Source of the DNA: a virus
Length of the DNA stretch: 43,006 bases
Virus record (IMG/VR): IMGVR_UViG_3300021957_000086
Coordinates: 1-43,006 of that record
Reading direction: 5' to 3' (one strand)
In this document: positions 21,028 to 43,006 of the stretch, one piece after another
Numbering within the stretch: position 1 is the first letter of the stretch
Layout: each line of letters opens with the position of its first letter
Program-made: the position numbers and the translations under genes
The notes under the pieces: generated by a model
What the model was told of the DNA's origin: nothing
Seen by the model: the letters and a program-made list of their open reading frames with translations, nothing else
The model's database searches: none

Positions 21028-24000
21028 ATGCCAAATATTTATGCTAAAAGCGCTCGTTCTGGTAAAACATATTCCGTAAATATAGCTGGAACTCAGCCCA
21101 CACCTGAAGAGCAAGCCTACATTGAACAGCGCATTGACAACATCGAAGGCTTCGGTGCTGTTGAGGCGCCTTTGCCTGTTGAGGAAGCTGATGACGCAAG
21201 TGCGGCTGGCAATTTAATTAGCGGCTTTGGTCGTGGCTTTCTTACATCATTCACAGAGCTACCCGGTGGTATTGTTGGACTTGGCGAATCAGTCCTTGGT
21301 TACGAGCCGGGGTCTACTGCTGTTGGCGAGGTGGCTCAAGACATATCTGACGCAGGGCGTTCTGGAGTAGAGTATCTTCTTGGGGAGTCTGATGGCAGTG
21401 TGTCATCTAAGACTGGTGAAGCGTTTGGCTCTCTTGCATCATTTTTTGTTCCCGGCACTGCCGCCGCGAAGGCGGCAAAGTTGGCTGGTTCCGGCCTCAA
21501 GGCGCAAAAGGTAGCTGGCCTTACTGGGGCTGGCGCAATGGGTGTTGGTCTGCAAGCAAAAGACCAAATCAATCGTGTTGCCGAACAGATTGCTCAGGGC
21601 AAAGAGATAGACCCAGATGATTTCATGAATGCCACCATGCTTGGTGGCGTGATTGGCGTTACAGAAATACTTCCTCTTCAAAGGGTGCTTGGCGATGTAT
21701 TGCAAATACTCCGCAAAGTTCCAAAGGGTAGCCAAGAAGCCGCCATCAAGACCATAGCTGGAAGACTAAAAAGAGCTACAGGGACATTCGCCGCTGAAGG
21801 TTCTCAAGAGGCTCTTGCGGGCATTGCTCAGGATTTGGTCGAGCAAAACCTATACAACCCAGATGCAGATATTGGCGCAACCGCAGGCGATGAGTTTCTT
21901 TATGGCGGCGGAGCTGGTGCCACTTTGTCATTCCTTGTTGACAGCATCAGAGGCCGTCAAATCAATAAGATGGACAAGGCGTTCACTCAGCTACAAGATG
22001 ACCTTGCAGATGAGGGCGCTGAGACAGCAGAAAAGGCGGCATTTGCCGCTAAGTCTGTACAGACAGGCACAGCGCTCCCCGGTCAACCAAAACTACTGTC
22101 CCCACCAAAAACTGACGATGAGCTAGTTGAAGGGACGGAGCAAGAGACTGACGCAAAGATTAAGTCTCTTGGGCTTTCACCAGAAGAAGAGTCACTAGCC
22201 GCCTCACAGGCCGCGAGAGAGCGCACCACAGGGTTTGCCAAAGTAGAGATAATGGCATTGCCTGAAGACGAGGCCGCGCGCATTAGGCGCAACAGAATAG
22301 CAACTGGGGTAGACCCAGACCTTGATGTCAGCCTTGATGAGTTGCAATCTACTATTGGTCAAGAGGCATTTGTACGCGAGTACAAAAAGCAAAAGCCAAA
22401 TATGTGGAGGGAGTCTGGCGAAAACCCACGAAATCAAAGGCCATTTAGTTCTGTCCAGTACGAGCAAGCGGTTAAGGCAGTAAGAGACAAGAAGAAAGCC
22501 ACTATACCTGTAATTCAGGCGGCGGCAAAAACTGAAGGAAAGCCAGTCCCTCTATCAGTAGCGCGCGAGTTACAAAAAGAGATGGGCCGTAAGGGCGTTC
22601 TTAATCAGGTTGGCGAAAGCAAATGGGAGGTAATGGAAAAGGTTGTTGAGGAAGAGGGTCCAGCGGCCCCCTTGCACCGAGCGTACAATCAACTTGAAGC
22701 CAAGATTGATGAAGTCAGACAAGAAAAACTTGAGGCGCAAGAGCGCCGTGACGCCGCCAAGGATAGAGGCGACACAACTGTAGCAGGCACAGCGCAACAA
22801 CAAATGGCTGAAGCTGACAGGCGCATTGATAGGCTTGATAACACTCGCTCCAGTGTAGAAGCTCAGTTAAACGAGCTTGACCCAGAGAACCCTATAGTTA
22901 ATTCGGTTGACGCCACGCAACAGGAAGCAAACAGGGCTAGGCAAGTAAGCGAAGCGGCATCTCAGGAACAGATGACCGATGAGTATGCGCGTAAGAGACA
23001 AAGTGTAGCAAATGCCTTGCGTAAATATTTACAGGCAATAGGACTTGGCGACAGGGTTGACCTAGTAACTCAAAATGTAATCTTCCCAGAAGGTGTGGAC
23101 AGCGATGCTAAATTTGAAGGCATCGAAGAACAGCTAAGAGCGCAAGGCGTTATTGAGGGGTTCGAGCAGGCCGGAGAAAATGGACGCAGGGTCATTGGCA
23201 TTGCCATGGAAATATATGACCCGAATCTATCGGAGGAAGAACTTGCCCTTAAACTGCGCGGCGTTATGAATCACGAGATGATTCACGCATTGCGTGGCTT
23301 GGGGCTGTTCACCGATAAAGAATGGCAAACTCTAACATCTGCCGCACAAAACAAGAAGCGCGTAAGGTATGTGAGTGGCAAGCTACAAGAGCGCGAATAC
23401 ACATACTATGACAGAGCCGAAGCAATCTACGGCCCGATGGGTGCTGACCAAGATTTGATTGCTGAAGAAGCTGTGGCTGAAATGTTCCGCGACTATGTTG
23501 ACGGCAAGCTCAAGATTGCTGGAAAGCCACAGTCACTACTCAAGCGTATTGTGAAGTTCTTCACATCTATCTTCCGTTCACACAATGATGTCGGCTTTAA
23601 GCAGGCGGCTGACATTTTCCAGAACATCACTACAACCGATAAGGCAAAGCAAATCGGTCGCCGTGACACTGGCTATGGTGAGATTGAGATTCCTCAAAGC
23701 AACAAGAAGTATTCAACTGCTGGCATTCGCGCCGGGTTCCTTGTGCCTGAAAAAGGTAACATTGAGCGCATTCGTCAGTCGTTCAAAGATGTCACAAAGC
23801 GCATACCTACGCTAACAGAGGCGGCAAAGAAATTGTCCGATGGTACAATTTCATACGATGAGTACGACAAGCTAGTTAACGAATTTAAGCCAATCATTCC
23901 TTACGACACAGTCCCTGCTCCTGAGAGCATGGAGGATATGCGTAACGCTTTGCAGGCGTCAGACCCTAGAAAGGTTGCGAAGCTAGGAAAGGCGAGCCTA

Positions 24001-27000
24001 ATTAAGAGTGGCACTAGACTTAAAATAAGGCTAGACATCCCAGCGTACACTCGTCAAGGCGTGTGGATTCCCACAATACATGGTCAAGATAACCGCACTA
24101 TTGCACATGAAAGCACAGCAATCATCACTGATGCACAGTTTAGTGCCAGCGAGAAGGTTGCGGCTAGAATTGCCGCTGGCGCTCAGAAGGGTCCGTTTGC
24201 CACAATAAACGGTAGCTTTGTGCAGGCGTCACCAGAAGAAGCATTCGCCATAGCGCAAGAGATGATGAATGACCCAGATGTAGTACAGGTTGGTTTTGAC
24301 CCAGAGCGCCATTCATATTTCTATGACCGCACCACAACACAGCCAGTAATTGCCGCAGAACAAGTCGTGCAAATCGGCCCGCTTGTCCTCGCAAAGAATC
24401 CTACATTCGCAGGCAAAGATAAGTTTAAGTATTCTATAGCTCCGCCAGCTCCTCTAAATGGAATTTCACAGTTCCTTACAGAGGAGGAGATTGAAGAAGT
24501 TCTTATTGGGCGCAATAATGTGGTCGAGAAGAAGGCAGAGAGCATTGCAAGAATATTCTCTGAGTTGCCGTCTGCGGATAATTTTGCGGCTGTAGCCATT
24601 GCTGGACAAGCCAAGAAGGGTTGGTACAGAAACTCAGCAAAGGCCATAATGGATATCTTTGGTATTCAAGATGCTCGGCGCTTCACTGCACTACTAGCCG
24701 CCACGTCTCCACAAACATCTGTAGAGATGAATGCAATTAACACCCTTAGTATATGGGCTAACTGGAATAACGCTGGGCGCCCACAAGACGCAGACACAAT
24801 CATCAAGATTATGGGCGAGAGTGTGCTGGGTGACAAAGGTGTGGATTCTGTCCTGCCAGCTTGGAAAGGCAACTCAATACGCGCCCTCACCGCACCGTTT
24901 GGTCAAGAGATGAATATCCTGCTCTCAGGGCCAAAGGTTAACTCTTTCATGCTTAACCTTGTCAATGAGCTTGATGAAGTCACCAACGACACTTGGATGG
25001 CTAACTTTGCGCTTATAGAACAGCCTTTGTTCAAGGGCTTTAAGCGCAAGGGCGCAGAAGACGCACTTGGGAAAATCGGCATCAAGGGGCCGGGATATCT
25101 GGCGTTTTCAGCAAGAACAAGAGAGGCCGCAAGAGCCGCTAGTGAAATCACTGGCGATAACTGGGCGCCAGCAGAAATTCAGGAAACTGTTTGGTCATTG
25201 TCAAAGGCATTGCTAGAGACACGCAAAGGCAAGGGCAATAAGTTAACTGCCAAAGAACTACTTACACAGGGCATCATCACAGACCAACAAGTTGCAGATG
25301 TGCCAGACTTTGCTACACTGTTCAGTGACGGTGTGTACGGAAGGATACTAGAAGATGCAGGGTACAAAGACAGACTTGACGCTATCAGAAGCCGCGACAC
25401 TGGCGATGGAGTCACAATTGAACCAAGGCCTATCTACAGCGCAGAAGGCGTCTCGGCTAATCCAGACTTTATCAGGCGAGAGCTTGGCGAGTTCGCAGAT
25501 AGACTCGAAATCCTCGCTGTCAACGGAAAGAAAGCCCTCAGAAAACTCAGCACAACAGTCCCAGCAGACATTACGGGAGGAAAGCGCGCCGCAATTGATG
25601 TCAGAATCGGTGCGGGCTTTAATGGAAGAGTTTTCACTGAACAAAGAGGAAGCAGAACGCTTAATGGATATAACGTAGTATCCACATACAAGGTTGGCGG
25701 TAATGCCGCCAGAACATATAACGAGCAAAGCATATCAACACCGTTAGTGATGGAGTTGGAAAAGGGCGCTAGGTCTGCCGAACAATTCTCTTCAGCCATC
25801 AGAGCCGCAAAGGCCAGCCTTGGTAATATGGGTGAATCTGTATATGTGTATCCAATAGAAACATCAGAAAGCCCTGATGGTTACACTGAAACTGGATATG
25901 AAGAGATGCGCCTGTTTCTCACTGAAGATGGCACTTCAGGGTTTGCTCTAAAAGAAACTGACACAGACGGCGTTATAGATATTGTTTCCGTATTCAACAC
26001 AGATGGCGGTCCAAACAAGGGAATAAACTATCCGTTGATTCGCCTAGCAACTGAGCAAGGTGGCAACACCCTTGATGCGTTTGACATCTACCTTCCCAAG
26101 CTATACAGCGCCAATGGATTTAAGGTTCGCTCACGGCTGAAGTGGGATAATGACGAAGCCCCAGATGGGTGGGATAAAGAGGCATTCAAAAACTTCAACA
26201 ACGGAGAGCCTGACGTTGTGTTTATGTATTATCAGCCAAACAGGGTTGATGTGTATAAGCAAGGCTCCGAAGAAGGTGAACTGTTTACAGATTACATGGA
26301 GGCAGTAGAGGCGCAAATAGGAGCCGCCCTGACACCCACAAGTGTAAACAGATATAAAGACATTGAGGTTGCCCAAGACGTTACAGAAAACAACCCTAAC
26401 GAGTTCCTGACAAAGGAAGATGACGCACAGCTTTCAGATGTTCGTGAGGGTATCAACGCGGCAGAAAAGTACGATGGTACAAAACTTTCCATCACCCCGC
26501 CAAAGCCCACTTCACTTATGAAGGCCCCCCTTAAAACAAAAGAACAATACGAATATGGATACATTCAGGAAGGCGGCAGAAAACTTCCTGTAGTTCTGAT
26601 GTATGGAAACCACCTTGTTCTTGATGATGGACGCTCTGGTGGATTCGGACTTCAACATTTGATTGCTCGCAATCATGTCCAAGAGTTATTGGACGCTGGG
26701 TTTCCGTCTGCTGAAAAAGCAATATTCGATATGATGTATCGTTGGGGCGCTCAAGGCTATCAAGATGGTGCGGATGTAATTGCATTCCCCGATGGTGGAG
26801 GCTCTATAAGGCTTGAGTGGGATGCGGGTAAGAGAGGCAAGATTGTCTTGTCCCTTACAAAGAGGGGCGTTCAGTACAACGGACAGCCAGCCTACACTGT
26901 AAGAACGGCCTACCCTCAGTCTAAAAAGAAACTGTCTTTGGCATACTCAGCTATTGACCCGAACAGAATACAAAATCAGATTCCTGTGGCTCAAGACAGC

Positions 27001-29871
27001 ATTATGTACTCAAGAGCCTCAAATCTTTTAGCCAAGGTTCTTGGTGTGGTCTATGACCGCAATAAGGCGGAGGACATTGCGGATAACTTCTTGCAGAAGT
27101 TCCAAGACTCTATGTTGCCTGTTGGCAGAATGATTGATGACCTAAAGTCTCAGGGCGCGACTATAACAGATGCCAACGACACATATCTCAGAGAAGAATT
27201 GTACCATGGTATAACTGGCTCAAAGATTGAAGACAACGAGAAGAACCTGTACGAACCTATGCTCAATCTGGTTAAGGGCATTGAACTGACAGAGGCACAG
27301 GTTTCAGTGTTGAGGGCAAACTCACGATTTGTTCGTGAAGCTATGCAAGCTGGAAAGCCGCTAAAGCAAATTTTATCTGATGCATTCCTGTATGCTCGTC
27401 ATGCAGAGGAGCGTAATGCTTATATCCGTAGCATTGACCCTGAAAACGATTCAGGTTCAGGCATGACAGACACTGAAGCGCGCGCCATAAATCAGTTCTT
27501 CGATTCACTTTCAGGGGCAGAGAGACAGCGATTCATTGATATAGGTGTAGCGGCAGATAGAATTGTACAAAACACTAACGACATCCGCGTTGCATCTGGC
27601 CTTACTCCTGACTTTAATGATGGAGAAACAATTGTAGATGCTGAAACTGGCGAGGTTGTGCCAGCTGGGCCAAATTACAGTGCATACGTTCCTTTGCGCG
27701 GTATTCTTGACCCTGAAAATGAGGCTAATGAAGAATATTCTGGGCGTCCTTCATCACGCCCTAAGTTTGGGGCGCGTGGCAGGGAAGACATGCGTATGTT
27801 TGGACGTTTCGAGTTTGCCAAAGACATTATGGCAAATCTAATGGTGCAAAATCAGAATGCCATTGTCCGTTCAGAGCGCAACAGAGTTGGTCAGTCATTC
27901 TTGCAGATGCTCAGAAACGAGCCTCGGTTGACAGAATCATATGCCAGAATTGTTGAGCAAAGGCCAACCATAAGAGTATTGAGCGGCGGCGTTGTAAAGA
28001 CCAGACCAGACCCAAGATTCGCTGACAGAGACGACATACTGATTGTAAAGGAAGGCGGTCAAGAGGTAGCAATTCAGATTGATGACCCTCGCATTGCTCT
28101 TGCTATGCGTGGCGCTTCGGGTATGTCATCGCAACACGCTGGTGTTGTTGTTAAGGCTCTAGGAAAGATTAACCGCTACCTGTCAAACATTAACACATCT
28201 TGGAACCCTGAGTTCTTAATCACAAACATGGTTCGTGACCTTCAGACTGCTGGCGTGAACATTAACCAGTATGAGATGAATGGGTTAACTAACGACATTC
28301 GCAAAACGATTGTTCCCGCTTTGAAAGGCATTAAACGCTCTATCATTGACGGTGACAGCACAGACGAGTGGTCAAAAATCTATCAGGATTTTGTGAGGTC
28401 TGGCGGTCAGAACGCAACAAACATGATGGGTGATTTGAACGACCAGCTTGGACGCCTTGAAGATATGTTAAAAGAGGTATCTGACGCTGGCGCGGATGGC
28501 GCGTTTAATAAAACAAAAGCTGGCTTTGGCAAAATTCTTAAAACATTGGAGGACTACAACACTGTAGTTGAAAACGGCGTCCGTGTTGCAACATACAAAA
28601 CACTTCTTGATAGAGGATTTAGCAAAGAACGCGCCGCACAAGCCGCCAGAAATGTGACTGTTAACTTTGCAAAGGGCGGTGAGTACAAGACGCTCATGAA
28701 CAGTATGTACCTGTTCTACAATGCCTCACTGCAAGGCACGTTTGCCCTTCTAAATGGCGCCTTACGCTCAAGCAAAGTGCGTAAGATATGGGTTGGCGCT
28801 ATGGTAGCAGGCATCCTGATAGACCAAATGAATGCGGCTATCTCAGACGATGACGAAGACGGTAAGGAAATATACGACAAAATTCCAGATTATGTTTTGG
28901 AAAAGAATTTAATCTTTATGGACCCATTTGGCATTCTTCCATCTGAACGTGGGTACTTTAAGATTCCAATGCCATATGGCTTAAACATGGTTGTGAATAT
29001 GGGACGGTCATTGAGCCGCGCTGGGCGAGGTGCTTATACCCCATCCGAAGCGACATCAACTCTTGTAGGCACAATTATTGACACACTCAATCCAATCGGT
29101 GACACACCCCGCATACCTTTTGTGGACAAAGACTTTGAGTTTCAAGATATCCTAACAACAATATCTCCTAGCGTTGGCGACCCTGTTGTTCAGTATCTAA
29201 CCAATAGTGACTACGCGAGGAAGCCTATATACAAAGAGCCATCCTCTTTTGGTGTGCCAGCACCTGAGAGCCAGATACACTGGACAACCACGTCACCATC
29301 AGCAGTATTCATTGCCAACTTCTTACGCAAGCCTTTCGGCCTTGGTGACGCTTCCGATGTAAGGCCGGGATTCATAGAGGTGTCACCAGACACGCTTGAG
29401 TTCTGGTTTGATTACGCGACTGGTGGTGTGGGTAGATTTGTTCAGCGCACAGCAGAGTTTGGGTTTTCCACCGCGCCTAAGTTAATGACTGGCGAATTTG
29501 AAGAAGCCATGCTCCGCTCAACCCCAGCAGTGAGACAGGTTGTTGGCTCAGTGTCTGAACGCGAAGACTTGGGTAACTTTGTCGAGAAAAGAGACAGAGT
29601 GCTACTGACCAGAAAAGATTTTCTTGACGCCCGTAAGAAAGGCGATGAAGCGCGCGCTCAGAGAATAGCACTAGCGTACAAAGAAGAACTACGCATATCA
29701 GGGATTATCAATGCACTAAACAATGCCAGAAACAAACTGGTTCGTAAGCGTAAGCAAATAGAAGAAAGCCAGTATATACCAGAAGACCAAAAGAAAGTTC
29801 TTATTGAGCGCATGAACGAGCGCATTAAAGAGATAGTGACTAGAGCAAACTCATTGATGTCTAGCTTGTAA
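21028..29871 (+). CDS. Giant polyvalent virion protein with metallopeptidase and LPD38-like domains
   Basis: 2947 aa, the largest gene here and of the size of phage polyvalent proteins, multi-domain proteins injected with the DNA. Residues about 60-300 are Gly/Ala-rich and amphipathic, as in injection proteins. A zincin motif H749-EMI-H753 (MNHEMIHALRG), followed by EEAVAEMF at 813-820, fits the polyvalent metallopeptidase (MPTase-PolyVal). About 1140-1420 is a helical domain with LLAATSPQTSVEMN (resembles DUF7178). About 1855-1895 holds GGFGLQHLIARNH, resembling the barnase/EndoU-like PBECR toxin or nuclease domains. About 2505-2605 (VRVATYKTLL, ARNVTVNFAKGG, LFYNASLQG) matches LPD38. The C-terminal 80 residues are charged helices. 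Three palindrome copies lie inside (22369, 26466, 27198). Domain names come from motif memory, not search. Confidence 0.8.
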   Translation: MPNIYAKSARSGKTYSVNIAGTQPTPEEQAYIEQRIDNIEGFGAVEAPLPVEEADDASAAGNLISGFGRGFLTSFTELPGGIVGLGESVLGYEPGSTAVGEVAQDISDAGRSGVEYLLGESDGSVSSKTGEAFGSLASFFVPGTAAAKAAKLAGSGLKAQKVAGLTGAGAMGVGLQAKDQINRVAEQIAQGKEIDPDDFMNATMLGGVIGVTEILPLQRVLGDVLQILRKVPKGSQEAAIKTIAGRLKRATGTFAAEGSQEALAGIAQDLVEQNLYNPDADIGATAGDEFLYGGGAGATLSFLVDSIRGRQINKMDKAFTQLQDDLADEGAETAEKAAFAAKSVQTGTALPGQPKLLSPPKTDDELVEGTEQETDAKIKSLGLSPEEESLAASQAARERTTGFAKVEIMALPEDEAARIRRNRIATGVDPDLDVSLDELQSTIGQEAFVREYKKQKPNMWRESGENPRNQRPFSSVQYEQAVKAVRDKKKATIPVIQAAAKTEGKPVPLSVARELQKEMGRKGVLNQVGESKWEVMEKVVEEEGPAAPLHRAYNQLEAKIDEVRQEKLEAQERRDAAKDRGDTTVAGTAQQQMAEADRRIDRLDNTRSSVEAQLNELDPENPIVNSVDATQQEANRARQVSEAASQEQMTDEYARKRQSVANALRKYLQAIGLGDRVDLVTQNVIFPEGVDSDAKFEGIEEQLRAQGVIEGFEQAGENGRRVIGIAMEIYDPNLSEEELALKLRGVMNHEMIHALRGLGLFTDKEWQTLTSAAQNKKRVRYVSGKLQEREYTYYDRAEAIYGPMGADQDLIAEEAVAEMFRDYVDGKLKIAGKPQSLLKRIVKFFTSIFRSHNDVGFKQAADIFQNITTTDKAKQIGRRDTGYGEIEIPQSNKKYSTAGIRAGFLVPEKGNIERIRQSFKDVTKRIPTLTEAAKKLSDGTISYDEYDKLVNEFKPIIPYDTVPAPESMEDMRNALQASDPRKVAKLGKASLIKSGTRLKIRLDIPAYTRQGVWIPTIHGQDNRTIAHESTAIITDAQFSASEKVAARIAAGAQKGPFATINGSFVQASPEEAFAIAQEMMNDPDVVQVGFDPERHSYFYDRTTTQPVIAAEQVVQIGPLVLAKNPTFAGKDKFKYSIAPPAPLNGISQFLTEEEIEEVLIGRNNVVEKKAESIARIFSELPSADNFAAVAIAGQAKKGWYRNSAKAIMDIFGIQDARRFTALLAATSPQTSVEMNAINTLSIWANWNNAGRPQDADTIIKIMGESVLGDKGVDSVLPAWKGNSIRALTAPFGQEMNILLSGPKVNSFMLNLVNELDEVTNDTWMANFALIEQPLFKGFKRKGAEDALGKIGIKGPGYLAFSARTREAARAASEITGDNWAPAEIQETVWSLSKALLETRKGKGNKLTAKELLTQGIITDQQVADVPDFATLFSDGVYGRILEDAGYKDRLDAIRSRDTGDGVTIEPRPIYSAEGVSANPDFIRRELGEFADRLEILAVNGKKALRKLSTTVPADITGGKRAAIDVRIGAGFNGRVFTEQRGSRTLNGYNVVSTYKVGGNAARTYNEQSISTPLVMELEKGARSAEQFSSAIRAAKASLGNMGESVYVYPIETSESPDGYTETGYEEMRLFLTEDGTSGFALKETDTDGVIDIVSVFNTDGGPNKGINYPLIRLATEQGGNTLDAFDIYLPKLYSANGFKVRSRLKWDNDEAPDGWDKEAFKNFNNGEPDVVFMYYQPNRVDVYKQGSEEGELFTDYMEAVEAQIGAALTPTSVNRYKDIEVAQDVTENNPNEFLTKEDDAQLSDVREGINAAEKYDGTKLSITPPKPTSLMKAPLKTKEQYEYGYIQEGGRKLPVVLMYGNHLVLDDGRSGGFGLQHLIARNHVQELLDAGFPSAEKAIFDMMYRWGAQGYQDGADVIAFPDGGGSIRLEWDAGKRGKIVLSLTKRGVQYNGQPAYTVRTAYPQSKKKLSLAYSAIDPNRIQNQIPVAQDSIMYSRASNLLAKVLGVVYDRNKAEDIADNFLQKFQDSMLPVGRMIDDLKSQGATITDANDTYLREELYHGITGSKIEDNEKNLYEPMLNLVKGIELTEAQVSVLRANSRFVREAMQAGKPLKQILSDAFLYARHAEERNAYIRSIDPENDSGSGMTDTEARAINQFFDSLSGAERQRFIDIGVAADRIVQNTNDIRVASGLTPDFNDGETIVDAETGEVVPAGPNYSAYVPLRGILDPENEANEEYSGRPSSRPKFGARGREDMRMFGRFEFAKDIMANLMVQNQNAIVRSERNRVGQSFLQMLRNEPRLTESYARIVEQRPTIRVLSGGVVKTRPDPRFADRDDILIVKEGGQEVAIQIDDPRIALAMRGASGMSSQHAGVVVKALGKINRYLSNINTSWNPEFLITNMVRDLQTAGVNINQYEMNGLTNDIRKTIVPALKGIKRSIIDGDSTDEWSKIYQDFVRSGGQNATNMMGDLNDQLGRLEDMLKEVSDAGADGAFNKTKAGFGKILKTLEDYNTVVENGVRVATYKTLLDRGFSKERAAQAARNVTVNFAKGGEYKTLMNSMYLFYNASLQGTFALLNGALRSSKVRKIWVGAMVAGILIDQMNAAISDDDEDGKEIYDKIPDYVLEKNLIFMDPFGILPSERGYFKIPMPYGLNMVVNMGRSLSRAGRGAYTPSEATSTLVGTIIDTLNPIGDTPRIPFVDKDFEFQDILTTISPSVGDPVVQYLTNSDYARKPIYKEPSSFGVPAPESQIHWTTTSPSAVFIANFLRKPFGLGDASDVRPGFIEVSPDTLEFWFDYATGGVGRFVQRTAEFGFSTAPKLMTGEFEEAMLRSTPAVRQVVGSVSEREDLGNFVEKRDRVLLTRKDFLDARKKGDEARAQRIALAYKEELRISGIINALNNARNKLVRKRKQIEESQYIPEDQKKVLIERMNERIKEIVTRANSLMSSL
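22369..22386. promoter_or_regulatory. Palindrome inside the giant gene
   Basis: TTTGTAC-GCGA-GTACAAA, perfect 7-bp arms. Confidence 0.58.
26466..26483. promoter_or_regulatory. Palindrome inside the giant gene
   Basis: AAAGTAC-GATG-GTACAAA; left arm has two mismatches but the GTAC cores and spacing are kept. Confidence 0.45.
27198..27215. promoter_or_regulatory. Palindrome inside the giant gene
   Basis: ATTGTAC-CATG-GTATAAC, one mismatch in each outer arm. Confidence 0.45.
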
Positions 29872-39620: not shown

Positions 39621-39637
39621 GGCGGCACTATGCCGCC
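39621..39637 (-). other. Hairpin over the VWA gene stop codon
   Basis: GGCGGCA-CTA-TGCCGCC, perfect 7-bp arms; the TAG stop of the VWA gene falls in the loop. No U-run, so likely mRNA stability or translation control, not termination. Confidence 0.45.
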
Positions 39638-40761
39638 ACCTCTATGCGTGTTGTCTCACCGAATGGCGCATCATCACAACGTGTCCACGTTGACACCCAT
39701 AAGACAGGATAATCAGGCGACTGGTCAGGCCAGTCATGAATGCCCATGTCAGTGAGATATACCATGTTATCAACAGGCAACTCATGCTCATCAATGTAGT
39801 CAAACACAGGGGTAACCCTAGTGCCGCCACGTCCTGTGCATTCGATACTGTCGATGATATCACCCTGTTCGTATCGGGTGACTGACTGCACCCTAGCGTC
39901 ACATGTTATGACCGTTACAGAGCGCGGCTTATGGTCTTCAGTGATGTTGTTCAGCTCACCCAAGAACTGTTGCAACTCAGCAGTATTTACCGAACCTGAT
40001 GTGTCGATGGCAACCACCACATCACCCACGCCTATCTTGTCGATGCTTGGCGTGTATATGCCCTGCGTATACCAAACCTTTTTGTTTGGTTTGCGGAAGG
40101 TATAGTCATCCGGCTGGTCACCGCCAATGAAGCGGTTGAACACGTCACGCCAGTCAACCTTAGACCGCCGCATCTCATCGACCAGTTCCTGTATAGCTGA
40201 TGGCAACTTGCCAACCGACTTAGCACCAGCCGCCGCAAGCATAACCTTCTGGTCAATGCTGGCCTCAAGCTGGCTGGCCTCTGACGGTGACAACTCTTTG
40301 CCATCATCACCAGTGGCATCATTAACGCCGCCCCATGGGCATTGTTGCTGGCCTTGCTGGTCAGGGTCACTGCCTAGCTGGTCATAAATACGTTCAGCAG
40401 TCATGCCCTTATACTGTGGGTCAAACAGGCCACCCTCTGGCAACTCAAAGTCACCGTCCAGCAGGATGTGGTTGATGGCATGGTCACAGGCAATGTTCCA
40501 GCGTTCAGCGTCACGCTCATTGCGGCGTAGCATATGCTTGAATGCAACATGCAACACCTCATGAGCAACAACGCCGATAATTTCTTTGTCGGTGTGCTGG
40601 TCAACAAAGTCACCATTCCATTTGATGAACGTGCCATCAGTACACATGGTTGGCTGATTGTCATCACGATGAATATTCAGGCCAAGTGCCAGTGAGCCGA
40701 AGAAGGGGCTATCAAGAACAAGGCGCGTTCTAGCCCTTGCCATTTTTGTATCTGCATCCAT
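39628..40761 (-). CDS. VWA-like metallopeptidase (DUF2201 type)
   Basis: 377 aa. N-terminal peptidase-like domain with H67-EVL-H71 (AHEVLHVAFKH) and ACDHAIN, the DUF2201 N-terminal pattern; C-terminal VWA-like domain with MIDAS Asp253-x-Ser255-x-Ser257 (IDTSGSV). A low-complexity linker (about 130-165) separates them. Members of this type are paired with MoxR ATPases, as here. It might be a metal-dependent peptidase or adaptor; the substrate is unknown. Leader GGGAGACTAAACATGG, nearly the same as that of the next upstream gene. Confidence 0.82.
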   Translation of the reverse strand: MDADTKMARARTRLVLDSPFFGSLALGLNIHRDDNQPTMCTDGTFIKWNGDFVDQHTDKEIIGVVAHEVLHVAFKHMLRRNERDAERWNIACDHAINHILLDGDFELPEGGLFDPQYKGMTAERIYDQLGSDPDQQGQQQCPWGGVNDATGDDGKELSPSEASQLEASIDQKVMLAAAGAKSVGKLPSAIQELVDEMRRSKVDWRDVFNRFIGGDQPDDYTFRKPNKKVWYTQGIYTPSIDKIGVGDVVVAIDTSGSVNTAELQQFLGELNNITEDHKPRSVTVITCDARVQSVTRYEQGDIIDSIECTGRGGTRVTPVFDYIDEHELPVDNMVYLTDMGIHDWPDQSPDYPVLWVSTWTRCDDAPFGETTRIEVAA

Positions 40762-40763
40762 GT

Positions 40764-40922
40764 TTAGTCTCCCGATTTGTCTTGAATTTTTCTGATAAAC
40801 TCATACGCATCTTCCAGCGCAGGGTTAAACCATTTTGTTCTATACTCTGCTGGACAGTCTTCATCAGCGTGAGCGCATACGATTTTTAGATGTTGGATGG
40901 CTTCAATAAGTTGCTCGTCCAT
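40764..40922 (-). CDS. 52-residue protein between MoxR and VWA genes
   Basis: 52 aa: MDEQLIEAIQHLKIVCAHAD then ECPAEYRTKW-like charged sequence and YEFIRKIQDKSG, helical. The start is supported by GGGAGACTAAAC before ATGG; the frame extends to 40982 but that would cross the palindrome and hairpin. Its location between the ATPase and VWA genes suggests a small accessory of the pair. Not recognised. Confidence 0.5.
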   Translation of the reverse strand: MDEQLIEAIQHLKIVCAHADEDCPAEYRTKWFNPALEDAYEFIRKIQDKSGD

Positions 40923-40937
40923 GTTTAGTCTCCCAAA

Positions 40938-40955
40938 TTTGTACGATGGTATAAA
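40938..40955. promoter_or_regulatory. Palindrome upstream of the 52-residue gene
   Basis: TTTGTAC-GATG-GTATAAA, intergenic, directly 3' (minus sense) of a GC hairpin and 5' of GGGAGACTAAAC-ATG, the same order as at 37369. Confidence 0.62.
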
Positions 40956-40978
40956 TAGGGGGCGGCGTGAACCGCCCC
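40951..40978 (-). terminator. Possible weak terminator or hairpin after MoxR
   Basis: Perfect 7-bp stem GGGGCGG / CCGCCCC with loop CGTGAA, then CCTATTTATAC on the minus strand. The U-tract is poor, so partial termination or a processing hairpin is more likely. Confidence 0.45.
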
Positions 40979-40986
40979 ACATAATG

Positions 40987-42000
40987 TTAGAGCATCAACT
41001 CTTTGCCCTCACTGAGCAGAAACTCGCGGAATGGCTGGGTCTGCTTGATGGCAGGGTGACGGTTGAATGCGTCCTTGATAGCGAACACCGCGAACTCTTT
41101 ATGCGGCAACCGCTTGAGGTACTTGATGACATTGCCAATGTTCTTGTCGTTGGCCTTGTAAGCCAGCGCGGCTGACACTGCATAGCACACAGCAGGGTCT
41201 TCACTGATTGCCGCACTGTCAGGGTTTGCAATCACGGCATCAATGTCTGGCACTGTGTCATGGATTTTCTTGTATCCCATGAACTCAGCGCAAGCACCGC
41301 GCCCAACCTGACCAGCGACAGCCTCATTCTCATTGACCGCATCCAAGCCCCACTTCATCATGGTATCGACACGCTCCCAAGAGCGAGGTGATGGACAGGA
41401 ATTTGCATCACGGTCAAACTTGTGGAGCAACTCAGGCCGGAACCGCAGGAACCCAGTCACAAGAGGCGAGACGCCAACGCTGTTCATATAGCCAATGGTA
41501 TCTTCTAGGTCAGCTTCAACCTCAAGAAATAACAGCCTGTCCTTGAGGTGGCTTGGCATGTTGTTAGTGCCAGCGCGGTCACTGGTGCGGTTGCCAGCGC
41601 ATACGATAGACCAACCATCGGGCAAGCGATGCTCACCTATGCGGCGTTCATTAACTAGCTGTGCGGCAATGTTCTGATTAGCCACCGGAGCCTGTGGTAA
41701 TTCATCCAGAAACAGGATGCCCTCACCATCGGCTGGCATCCAGTCGGGGCGAAGCCGTTTCATGTTATCGCCATCAGCGACAAGCCAGCCAGCCAACTCG
41801 CCAGCATCATACTGGGCAAGCGATAGGATATTGAGGCCAACCTCACGCTCATCAGCGATAGACTGCACGACTGACGTTTTACCAAGGCCAGCACCGCCGA
41901 CAAGGTAGGCGATAGGACGCTGTGCGTCACGTCCATTGGCATTCTTTGTTTGGCTGTCGATTGAAGCCTCGACAATAGCTTTTGCTTGTGAAATACGCAT
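40987..42000 (-). CDS. MoxR-family AAA+ ATPase
   Basis: 337 aa. Walker A GGAGLGKT at 35-42, Walker B ILFLDE at 95-100, sensor-like CAGNRTSD at about 135 and a C-terminal helical lid. MoxR proteins remodel or activate partner proteins, usually a VWA protein, through ATP hydrolysis (CbbQ-CbbO, RavA-ViaA). The VWA metallopeptidase gene lies downstream after a 52-residue gene. Leader CTGGGAGAATATCAAG before ATG. Followed by a GC-rich hairpin. Which phage process it serves is unknown. Confidence 0.88.
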   Translation of the reverse strand: MRISQAKAIVEASIDSQTKNANGRDAQRPIAYLVGGAGLGKTSVVQSIADEREVGLNILSLAQYDAGELAGWLVADGDNMKRLRPDWMPADGEGILFLDELPQAPVANQNIAAQLVNERRIGEHRLPDGWSIVCAGNRTSDRAGTNNMPSHLKDRLLFLEVEADLEDTIGYMNSVGVSPLVTGFLRFRPELLHKFDRDANSCPSPRSWERVDTMMKWGLDAVNENEAVAGQVGRGACAEFMGYKKIHDTVPDIDAVIANPDSAAISEDPAVCYAVSAALAYKANDKNIGNVIKYLKRLPHKEFAVFAIKDAFNRHPAIKQTQPFREFLLSEGKELML

Positions 42001-42095
42001 CTTGATATTCTCCCAGTTTGTTTGAGTGTAGCGAGACGCTACGACACTGCCGGAGCAGTGTTTCGGGGGTGTCTCACGCCCCCCTCGTCAGGTAG
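42001..42095 (-). repeat. Structured intergenic element, copy 1 (before MoxR)
   Basis: Three hairpins: GTAGCG/CGCTAC (42028-42042), ACACTGC/GCAGTGT (42044-42061) and GGGGGTGT/ACGCCCCC (42065-42083). Homologous to 42768-42861; same order, nearly same length, with base changes that keep pairing. On the transcript it lies between the stop of the 42096 gene and the CTGGGAGA leader of MoxR. Confidence 0.72.
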
Positions 42096-42767
42096 CTATG
42101 CCGCTTGGCCTTCAAGTTGTGCGGTCATCTCATTGATGGCCTCATTCTCTGCTTGTGTTTTGTCTGCGGCTTCCTGTGCGGCGGCTTCCATATCACCGCG
42201 AACACGCAGGGCATCAGCCAGCAGTGACTGAAATTCTTCAATCTCTGCATAGTCAAAGCCGCCAAGCCACTTGTCACCATCGACACGGTTGCCCTTGTCA
42301 TCCTTTTTGGTTGACCGCTTGCCAGCCACCTTATCGACAGCAAGCTGGACTTTCGACTTAGCATCGTCACCAGACACGGCCTTAATCAGCTTGGCCTCAG
42401 ACGTGATATCGTTAGCCTCGAAAGTATCAGCCACCATTTCTGGGGTGATGTTGCCACCGCCAATGTTGAACACGTTACGCGCTCCGACTGCATTTTTGAC
42501 CATCTTGTTTGCCATGCCCTCAGACAGAGAGCCAATATCCATCAGGTCAGCCTTGAGGCTGGATGATACAGCCGTAGGCAAGTTTGACTTGGCGGTCAGG
42601 GGGGCGTCAGCAATGCCAGCAATCAGTTGGCAATAGCTGTTCAGCTTGAGGCTTTGCGCCTCAGTGTTGGCCTCTTTTGCGTCACCCTTCAAGTTGGTGA
42701 TGCGCTTTTCGTTAGAAGCGATAGTGTTAAGGTTGCTGTCGGCAATTGAAAAAGTTGATTTAGTCAT
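42096..42767 (-). CDS. Ala/Asp/Lys-rich phage protein upstream of MoxR
   Basis: 223 aa, Ala-, Asp- and Lys-rich, mostly helical (ITNLKGDAKEANTEAQSLKL, EEFQSLLADALRVRGDMEAAAQEA); no catalytic motif seen. The linker about 140-170 is charged (KRSTKKDDKGNRVDGDKW). Flanked on both sides by the homologous 94/95-bp structured intergenic elements, as if it were one unit of a duplicated cassette. Leader CTGGGAGACT before ATG. Could be a substrate or partner of the MoxR-VWA pair, by position only. Confidence 0.58.
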   Translation of the reverse strand: MTKSTFSIADSNLNTIASNEKRITNLKGDAKEANTEAQSLKLNSYCQLIAGIADAPLTAKSNLPTAVSSSLKADLMDIGSLSEGMANKMVKNAVGARNVFNIGGGNITPEMVADTFEANDITSEAKLIKAVSGDDAKSKVQLAVDKVAGKRSTKKDDKGNRVDGDKWLGGFDYAEIEEFQSLLADALRVRGDMEAAAQEAADKTQAENEAINEMTAQLEGQAA

Positions 42768-42861
42768 ATCGGATAGTCTCCCAGTTGTTTGAATAGCAGG
42801 ACGCTACGACACCGCATGGCGCGGTGTTTCGGGCGTGTCCTACGCGCCCCTCATCAGGTAG
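42768..42861 (-). repeat. Structured intergenic element, copy 2
   Basis: Hairpins TAGC/GCTA (42794-42806), ACACCGC/GCGGTGT (42809-42827) and GGGCGTGT/ACGCGCCC (42831-42849). Compared with copy 1, a T-A pair became C-G in the second stem and a G-C became C-G in the third, both compensated. Ends in TCAGGTAGCTAT as copy 1 does. Confidence 0.72.
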
Positions 42862-43006
42862 CTATATTGCAATGAATTGAGACAGGCGAACCGTTCCCTT
42901 CTTGAACATCTTGCCGCCGTTCATTGTGTAGTAGCCGTGGAACTTGCGGTTCTTGTAAACCGCCAGCATCTCATGGCGTTCCCCAAATTTCAGATTATGG
43001 CGTTGG
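42862..43006 (-). CDS. C-terminal fragment of a gene cut by the window edge
   Basis: Open to the right edge: 47 codons and a TAG stop. Residues include ERHEMLAVYKNRKFHGYYTM and NGGKMFKKGTVRLSQF, basic and aromatic, of unknown family. The stop is directly followed by CTACCTGA and the structured intergenic element, exactly as after the next gene, supporting a real coding end. Start and full length lie outside the window. Confidence 0.55.
   Translation of the reverse strand, partial: QRHNLKFGERHEMLAVYKNRKFHGYYTMNGGKMFKKGTVRLSQFIAI

Follow-up and report, generated by a model that had tools for sequence, protein, structure and literature searches.

The two repeated elements in the intergenic spacers at the right end of the window—by which we mean the whole stretch of DNA analysed, a 43,006-base uncultivated aquatic virus record—are almost certainly hammerhead ribozymes (HHRs), both with the type I layout, and the best explanation overall is that these pseudoknot-stabilized HHRs probably serve in the co-transcriptional punctuation of a phage operon. 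That operon lies on the minus strand and runs in the order cut-off upstream gene, HHR A, g223, HHR B, MoxR ATPase, DUF2201 VWA protein, its 5' part extending beyond the contig edge and therefore outside the window. The core, stems, pseudoknot, covariation, placement, synteny, and a competing hairpin are all documented here at the level of the sequence. The genes, the ribozymes, and their signals are as follows:

42862-43006, minus strand: upstream gene, C-terminal end, truncated by the contig; open frame ending in ...VRLSQFIAI, stop TAG at 42864-42862; the L007 homologue is 60% identical
42793-42864, minus strand: ribozyme A, type I HHR upstream of g223, identified by covariance model (CM) R1, core and stems, and covariation; stem I overlaps the TAG of the preceding gene
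42807-42808, minus strand: predicted cleavage site A (GUC 42808 ^ G 42807), placed by the H17 position in the core
42777-42782, minus strand: Shine-Dalgarno-like GGGAGA before g223, read in spacer A
42096-42767, minus strand: g223, encoding a 223-aa protein between both ribozymes; stop TAG at 42098-42096; helical AlphaFold model
42028-42098, minus strand: ribozyme B, type I HHR between g223 and the MoxR-like gene, identified by CM R1, core and stems, and covariation; stem I overlaps the g223 TAG
42042-42043, minus strand: predicted cleavage site B (GUC 42043 ^ G 42042), placed by the H17 position in the core
42009-42014, minus strand: Shine-Dalgarno-like GGGAGA before the MoxR-like gene, read in spacer B
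40987-42000, minus strand: MoxR-like AAA ATPase, 3' of ribozyme B; Pfam AAA, PHROG 1297 ATPase, 43% identity to Roseobacter phage CRP-7 gp07

Regarding the proteins, g223 had no Pfam or PHROG match and its fold search returned no named relative. Protein relatives include phages of Roseobacter, Pelagibacter, and freshwater bacteria. The MoxR-like ATPase adjoins a DUF2201 metallopeptidase/VWA protein (window 39628-42000), the two constituting a phage-borne MoxR–VWA pair; the PHROG label of the VWA protein is "HNH endonuclease," which designation its Pfam domains do not back.

The preliminary description had reported two segments, of 95 nt (42001-42095) and 94 nt (42768-42861), on both sides of the open reading frame 42096-42767, each starting straight after a TAG stop and ending in a TGGGAGA ribosome-binding leader; our reading confirms these limits along with the base changes that had been quoted, U-A to C-G in the middle stem—here stem III—and G-C to C-G in the long stem, here stem II. 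Written on the minus strand, the spacers contain:

Spacer A: UAGCUAC CUGAUGA G GGGCG CGUAGGACA CGCCC GAA ACACCGC GCCAU GCGGUGU C^GUAGC GUCCU GCUAU
Spacer B: UAGCUAC CUGACGA G GGGGG CGUGAGACA CCCCC GAA ACACUGC UCCG GCAGUGU C^GUAGC GUCUC GCUAC

Both copies thus possess a complete hammerhead core on that strand (CUGANGA, GAA, A15.1–U16.1, and GUC^G) together with three stems, and every position of the core test—C3 U4 G5 A6 N7 G8 A9, G12 A13 A14, A15.1-U16.1, and H17—is occupied as expected. Stem I is open and stems II and III are capped, which arrangement corresponds to type I. We predict that the ribozymes very probably cleave in the infected cell, where the cuts at A and B would free a 765-nt RNA carrying g223 and would leave predicted 5' UTRs of 40 nt before g223 (A) and 42 nt before MoxR (B).

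A loose pattern composed of only part of stem I, the core, and the GUC gave 30 viral contig stretches, nearly all of them clear hammerheads. In the window and the loci gathered first, a scanner specifying the core plus the three stems listed 68 copies, redundant ones counted, and it listed none in the reversed sequences; it recovered both window copies and, after further loci had been added, again found none in 1.48 Mb of reversed sequence. Covariation was evaluated on an alignment of 24 distinct elements under the HHR structure and the pseudoknot between loop II and the tail: 97.2% of the structure cells pair, 17 of the 21 pairs exhibit double-sided changes, and the hammerhead core positions are invariant. 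Stems I and II are paired in 100% of the cells and stem III in 89-100%, with double-sided changes in every helix. None of 500 shuffles came near the real alignment (77% paired, covariation 0.14 vs. 0.51 in the real one), and when the partners were slid as a further control the pairing fell to 24–52%. The claim in the preliminary description that covariation reflected a selected RNA structure consequently holds, and the outcome that it had named as adverse, a lack of covariation among more homologues, is ruled out by this alignment. CM R1 matches window 42789-42866 with 86 bits and 42024-42100 with 88 bits, R1 having been trained on both. As to what those elements are, the same description had pointed in the right direction with selected structure and a hint of processing sites, the reading being incomplete in that the elements are hammerhead ribozymes.

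The minimum-free-energy fold of the whole spacer was the product-hairpin fold described below, without the hammerhead, with z = -2.4 and -1.2, values so weak that single-sequence folding is not counted here as evidence. The tRNA scan of the region was empty. A pattern scan of GTDB genomes gave 24 matches, of which the structural scanner retained one at its cut-off (L067), so that no prophage or host assignment follows from the scan. Finally, a CM R1 search of seven cultured phages gave no relative, a null that says little on other topologies because R1 missed the type II HHR of CRP-7.

Each spacer contains two stable hairpins, and these might be taken for transcription terminators or for the RNase III sites of a T7-like operon, in either instance non-catalytic. 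T7-like phages process their early mRNA at RNase III hairpins; nevertheless, the invariant unpaired CUGANGA and GAA, along with the pseudoknot, are explained by neither, and we regard a non-catalytic role as exceedingly improbable. An intrinsic terminator was rejected on its own account, there being no T-tract and no terminator-like call at either element.

The hammerhead identity must also accommodate one extra G between A9 and stem II in both window copies, which base, depending on the pairing register, falls in the junction or within stem II; a register shift at that G could restore the canonical core. A base is inserted after A9 in 77 of 142 phage elements, in 68 of these a U. Rfam, searched on the region at the gathering cutoff and at E-values up to 10, returned no hammerhead, RF00163 (Hammerhead_1; 34-bit cutoff) being without a match in the window; at sibling elements in other contigs the same model scored below threshold, at up to 29.5 bits (28.6 bits in G025), while a positive control, RF02276 (Hammerhead_II), gave 50.1 bits in CRP-7 against a cutoff of 37. 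Rfam Hammerhead_1 thus misses the HHRs of this phage clade, and any annotation relying on Rfam is blind to them. Might the copies then be degenerate hammerheads, inactivated by the base after A9? The failure of the Rfam model to score the window elements is in keeping with that idea, as is the observation that core insertions often lower HHR activity—an A6a insertion giving low activity and saltern variants needing high salt (PMC3088659). Against this stand the presence of the insertion in more than half of the copies just cited, in many lineages with full covariation, and the coexistence of forms with and without it in single operons (L012, L015, L030); we accordingly consider inactivity very improbable.

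The structure includes a predicted 5-bp pseudoknot between loop II and the 3' tail, present in both copies and covarying:

42837-42841, minus strand: ribozyme A pseudoknot, loop II arm AGGAC, pairing with GUCCU at 42798-42802
42798-42802, minus strand: ribozyme A pseudoknot, 3' arm GUCCU, which is also the loop of the product hairpin, pairing with the loop II arm AGGAC
42071-42075, minus strand: ribozyme B pseudoknot, loop II arm GAGAC, pairing with 42033-42037 and co-changed with its partner relative to copy A
42033-42037, minus strand: ribozyme B pseudoknot, 3' arm GUCUC, pairing with the loop II arm GAGAC

Among the 24 homologues this helix is 94% paired, and four of its five pairs display double-sided changes. 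In the wider set of 142 elements, the scanner had demanded stem pairing, so that only the pseudoknot, the repeated strand, and the placement are free of bias there; the pseudoknot formed part of no search criterion. In 95 of those elements, loop II and the tail contain complementary stretches of 4 nt or more, vs. a mean of 37 (maximum 51) when the tails were shuffled among elements.

The preliminary description had spoken of three hairpins in each segment. The third is real, pairing in 88% of the cells; what the description had overlooked was the catalytic core, along with stem I (GCUAC/GUAGC) and the pseudoknot formed by loop II. This third hairpin is not stem I: in it, GCUAC, the 5' strand of stem I repeated further downstream, pairs with the stem I 3' strand (GUAGC), making the product hairpin and stem I mutually exclusive:

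42793-42807, minus strand: product hairpin A (GUAGC GUCCU GCUAU), at the 5' end of the predicted downstream product; recognized by pairing, folding switch, and strand repeat
42028-42042, minus strand: product hairpin B (GUAGCG UCU CGCUAC); recognized by pairing and folding switch

The repeat of the stem I strand is seen in several sequence groups (GCUAC in 22/22, CCCAC in 41/45, GUCAC in 2/2, GCUGC in 2/2, and others) but not in every one (CUCAC in 1/7); exact repeats were present in 90 of 142 elements, whereas shuffled tails gave 42 on average and 54 at most. An alternative reading, with stem I as a short helix and a second, outer helix made with the downstream copy, was dropped, since in the CCCAC group the only partner available to that copy is the stem I 3' strand.

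We then calculated the competition between both helices by partition-function folding, which treatment is nested and ignores the pseudoknot—a contact that would favour the ribozyme form—and whose energies are model values. In a nascent RNA ending 10 nt past the cut, the calculated stem I probability was about 0.92 for A and 0.97 for B; once the full leader was present, the product hairpin won and that probability became 0.01 (A) and 0.09 (B). Over the 142 elements the mean passed from 0.78 to 0.21 with the full tail, vs. 0.53 when the tail letters were shuffled; the predicted downstream product had its first four bases paired with a probability of 0.87, vs. 0.60 for shuffled tails. These calculations suggest an attractive, unproven model: a co-transcriptional window for cleavage followed by a strand exchange that caps the product, the timing being the part that we infer.

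The cleavage event, its timing, and its effects on mRNA stability and stoichiometry might be envisaged in the following way. Behind the RNA polymerase, stem II, stem III, and stem I would fold, and loop II would kiss the segment just 3' of the cleavage site, upon which the RNA would cut itself after the GUC. The upstream mRNA would carry two stable hairpins followed by a terminal 2',3'-cyclic phosphate, and the downstream mRNA would begin with a 5'-OH some 40 nt ahead of its start codon. The 3' half of stem I, once freed, would pair with the repeat of the 5' strand lying downstream, and the terminal hairpin so formed would block re-ligation and shield the new 5' end, the outcome being one promoter and, for each gene, one separately decaying message. 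That the ribozymes punctuate the phage polycistron in this sense, cutting one long mRNA into gene-length messages with their own 5' ends, we consider rather likely. A more specific version we put forward only tentatively, with more doubt than confidence: the ribozyme would be active solely in the interval after its stem I 3' strand had been made and before the downstream competitor was, and once the cut had occurred the competitor would fold the new 5' end into a hairpin at the terminus. A multi-gene operon would thereby obtain a self-limiting, one-shot, RiboJ-like setting of 5' ends, a step that ribosomes at the stop codon overlapping stem I might gate.

The placement of the elements is consistent with a role in expression. 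A stop codon of an open reading frame lies within -20 to +4 of C3 in 102 of 134 elements, vs. 8% at random positions; in 20 elements the UGA of the C-UGA core serves as that stop; and the predicted cut precedes the next start codon by a median of 32 nt. Cleavage might on these grounds be regulated by translation: a ribosome terminating at a stop that overlaps stem I would unfold the ribozyme, and cutting would track the translation of the upstream gene. The stop does overlap or abut stem I in the window and in most relatives, and the 20 elements with the stop within the core also speak in favour; yet compact phage genomes place stops near any intergenic element, and the folding competition suggests that the timing of transcription suffices, so that we deem such regulation unlikely, compatible though it is with operon punctuation.

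Since most loci had been found through their HHR, the count of distinct g223 genes with enough flank—17 of 18 with an upstream type I HHR—is biased; ten g223 relatives were, for that matter, fetched by protein sequence alone, and all ten had an HHR directly upstream, nine of type I and one of type III. In the latter (L042), stem III is CCUGU/ACAGG, stem I has 7 bp, and a loop–loop pseudoknot of 5 bp is present. Relatives with protein identity as low as 28% still keep the HHR slot upstream of g223. Only 7 of 18 related contigs, for their part, have a type I HHR in the slot between g223 and MoxR, and the ribozyme is therefore dispensable there. A type III HHR is often located one gene further upstream in the clade (L013, L015, L017, L027, L032, L033, L035), and in type III HHRs with a loop–loop pseudoknot (L042 5739-5789; L013 6388-6436; L038 905-951; others) an ACAGGAG-like end overlaps the ribosome-binding site.

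Elsewhere, arrays alternating open reading frames and HHRs reach four copies (L111), five (L163), and nine (L096), the last (record G025) with its nine matches in an 11-kb contig, on one strand, between small open reading frames. Pistol ribozymes (RF02679) likewise occur in intergenic slots, at L019 2806-2875 and 3609-3678 and at L133 1254-1320, all on the minus strand; in L019 the two Pistols are interspersed with five hammerheads in equivalent slots, so that what is preserved seems to be cleavage and not a particular RNA class.

From 42812, a position in stem III that precedes cut A by 4 nt, the downstream sequence of the window is 99% identical to that of contigs L036 and L037, and on the upstream side the sequences are unrelated; the recombination breakpoint, at L036 1280 and L037 1224, falls inside ribozyme A. 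An HHR is present in both versions of the exchanged sequence, with the exchange point within the ribozyme, and the window copies are therefore members of a recombined, dispersed family. The possibility, raised in the preliminary description, that the repeats were only recent duplicates is thereby ruled out, both copies belonging to a dispersed phage family and not merely to a local duplication. Such an exchange also invites the proposal that the HHRs cleave, but that their main role is as cargo or junctions of modular phage recombination, homologous HHRs allowing gene cassettes to be swapped; the type III in place of type I before g223 in L042 and the variable presence of the second HHR among relatives could be read similarly. 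Yet it is compensatory change, not sequence identity, that preserves the core, stems, and pseudoknot, as would fit activity and not a recombination target, and the strict geometry with respect to stop and start codons serves expression, so that we find a primarily recombinational role improbable and retain operon punctuation as the preferred explanation.

The elements have several known counterparts. Perreault et al. (2011; PMC3088659) described HHRs flanking single genes in prophages, estimated pseudoknots in some 40% of HHRs, showed tandem HHRs around prophage genes to cleave both in vitro and in E. coli, and suggested that gene-length mRNAs arise by the processing of long phage RNAs. Since HHRs flanking phage genes and HHR pseudoknots were thus already known, the window elements are a variant and not a new class. 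They share with those phage HHRs (RF00163) the core, the type I topology, the stem I–II pseudoknot, the several copies flanking single genes, and the proposed mRNA processing, and differ in the lack of an Rfam match at the curated cutoff, the base after A9, the repeated stem I strand, and the conserved slot before g223. In the main texts of the freely readable papers, we found no description of the base after A9, of the stem I strand repeat as a product hairpin, or of the embedded stop codon.

The Hammerhead_II (RF02276) of CRP-7 (MK613349) likewise stands straight after a TAG stop and before the next gene, in an early region containing MoxR, but is of type II, whereas the window HHRs are of type I. 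In that phage (L168 570-633), gp02 is annotated as starting at 619, on the AUG of CUGAUGA, and an ATG with a ribosome-binding site is found at 660; the annotated start looks mistaken. In haloviruses HF1/HF2, the HHphage HHR lies 13 nt before a start codon in an early polycistronic transcript, whose mapped 5' end is at the cleavage site, within 3 nt (PMC3088659). That ribozyme has a core insertion near C3 and an archaeal host, whereas in the window HHRs the insertion follows A9. Pistol, a self-cleaving class that occupies equivalent intergenic slots in phage contigs also carrying hammerheads, has a different fold, and none is present in the window.

The functionally closest object, by analogy, would be RiboJ, a synthetic insulator consisting of the sTRSV hammerhead plus a 23-nt hairpin that is left at the mRNA 5' end and raises expression (PMC6206723); the window layout is likewise HHR, hairpin, ribosome-binding site, and gene. 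RiboJ is engineered from a satellite RNA (sTRSV) and placed after promoters, whereas the window elements are natural, of type I, and intergenic, with a hairpin strand that doubles as a competitor of stem I; these elements would suggest a natural counterpart of that widely used insulator. The biological role of prokaryotic hammerheads has been termed an open question (PMC6155905). The clade offers a conserved slot, a fixed stop/start geometry, arrays of up to nine copies, topology replacement in the same slot, and an HHR in the related cultured phage CRP-7, which features make the mRNA-punctuation hypothesis directly testable.

Two further observations concern the rest of the window. Positions 21028-29871 form one open reading frame of 2947 aa, unusually long for a 43-kb phage contig, and within 721-2363 a repeated module, GNSGTVAVGMxVxGTGISGxVTVATVxSQTxIVLDTAVTLxDD, is common to two adjacent proteins.
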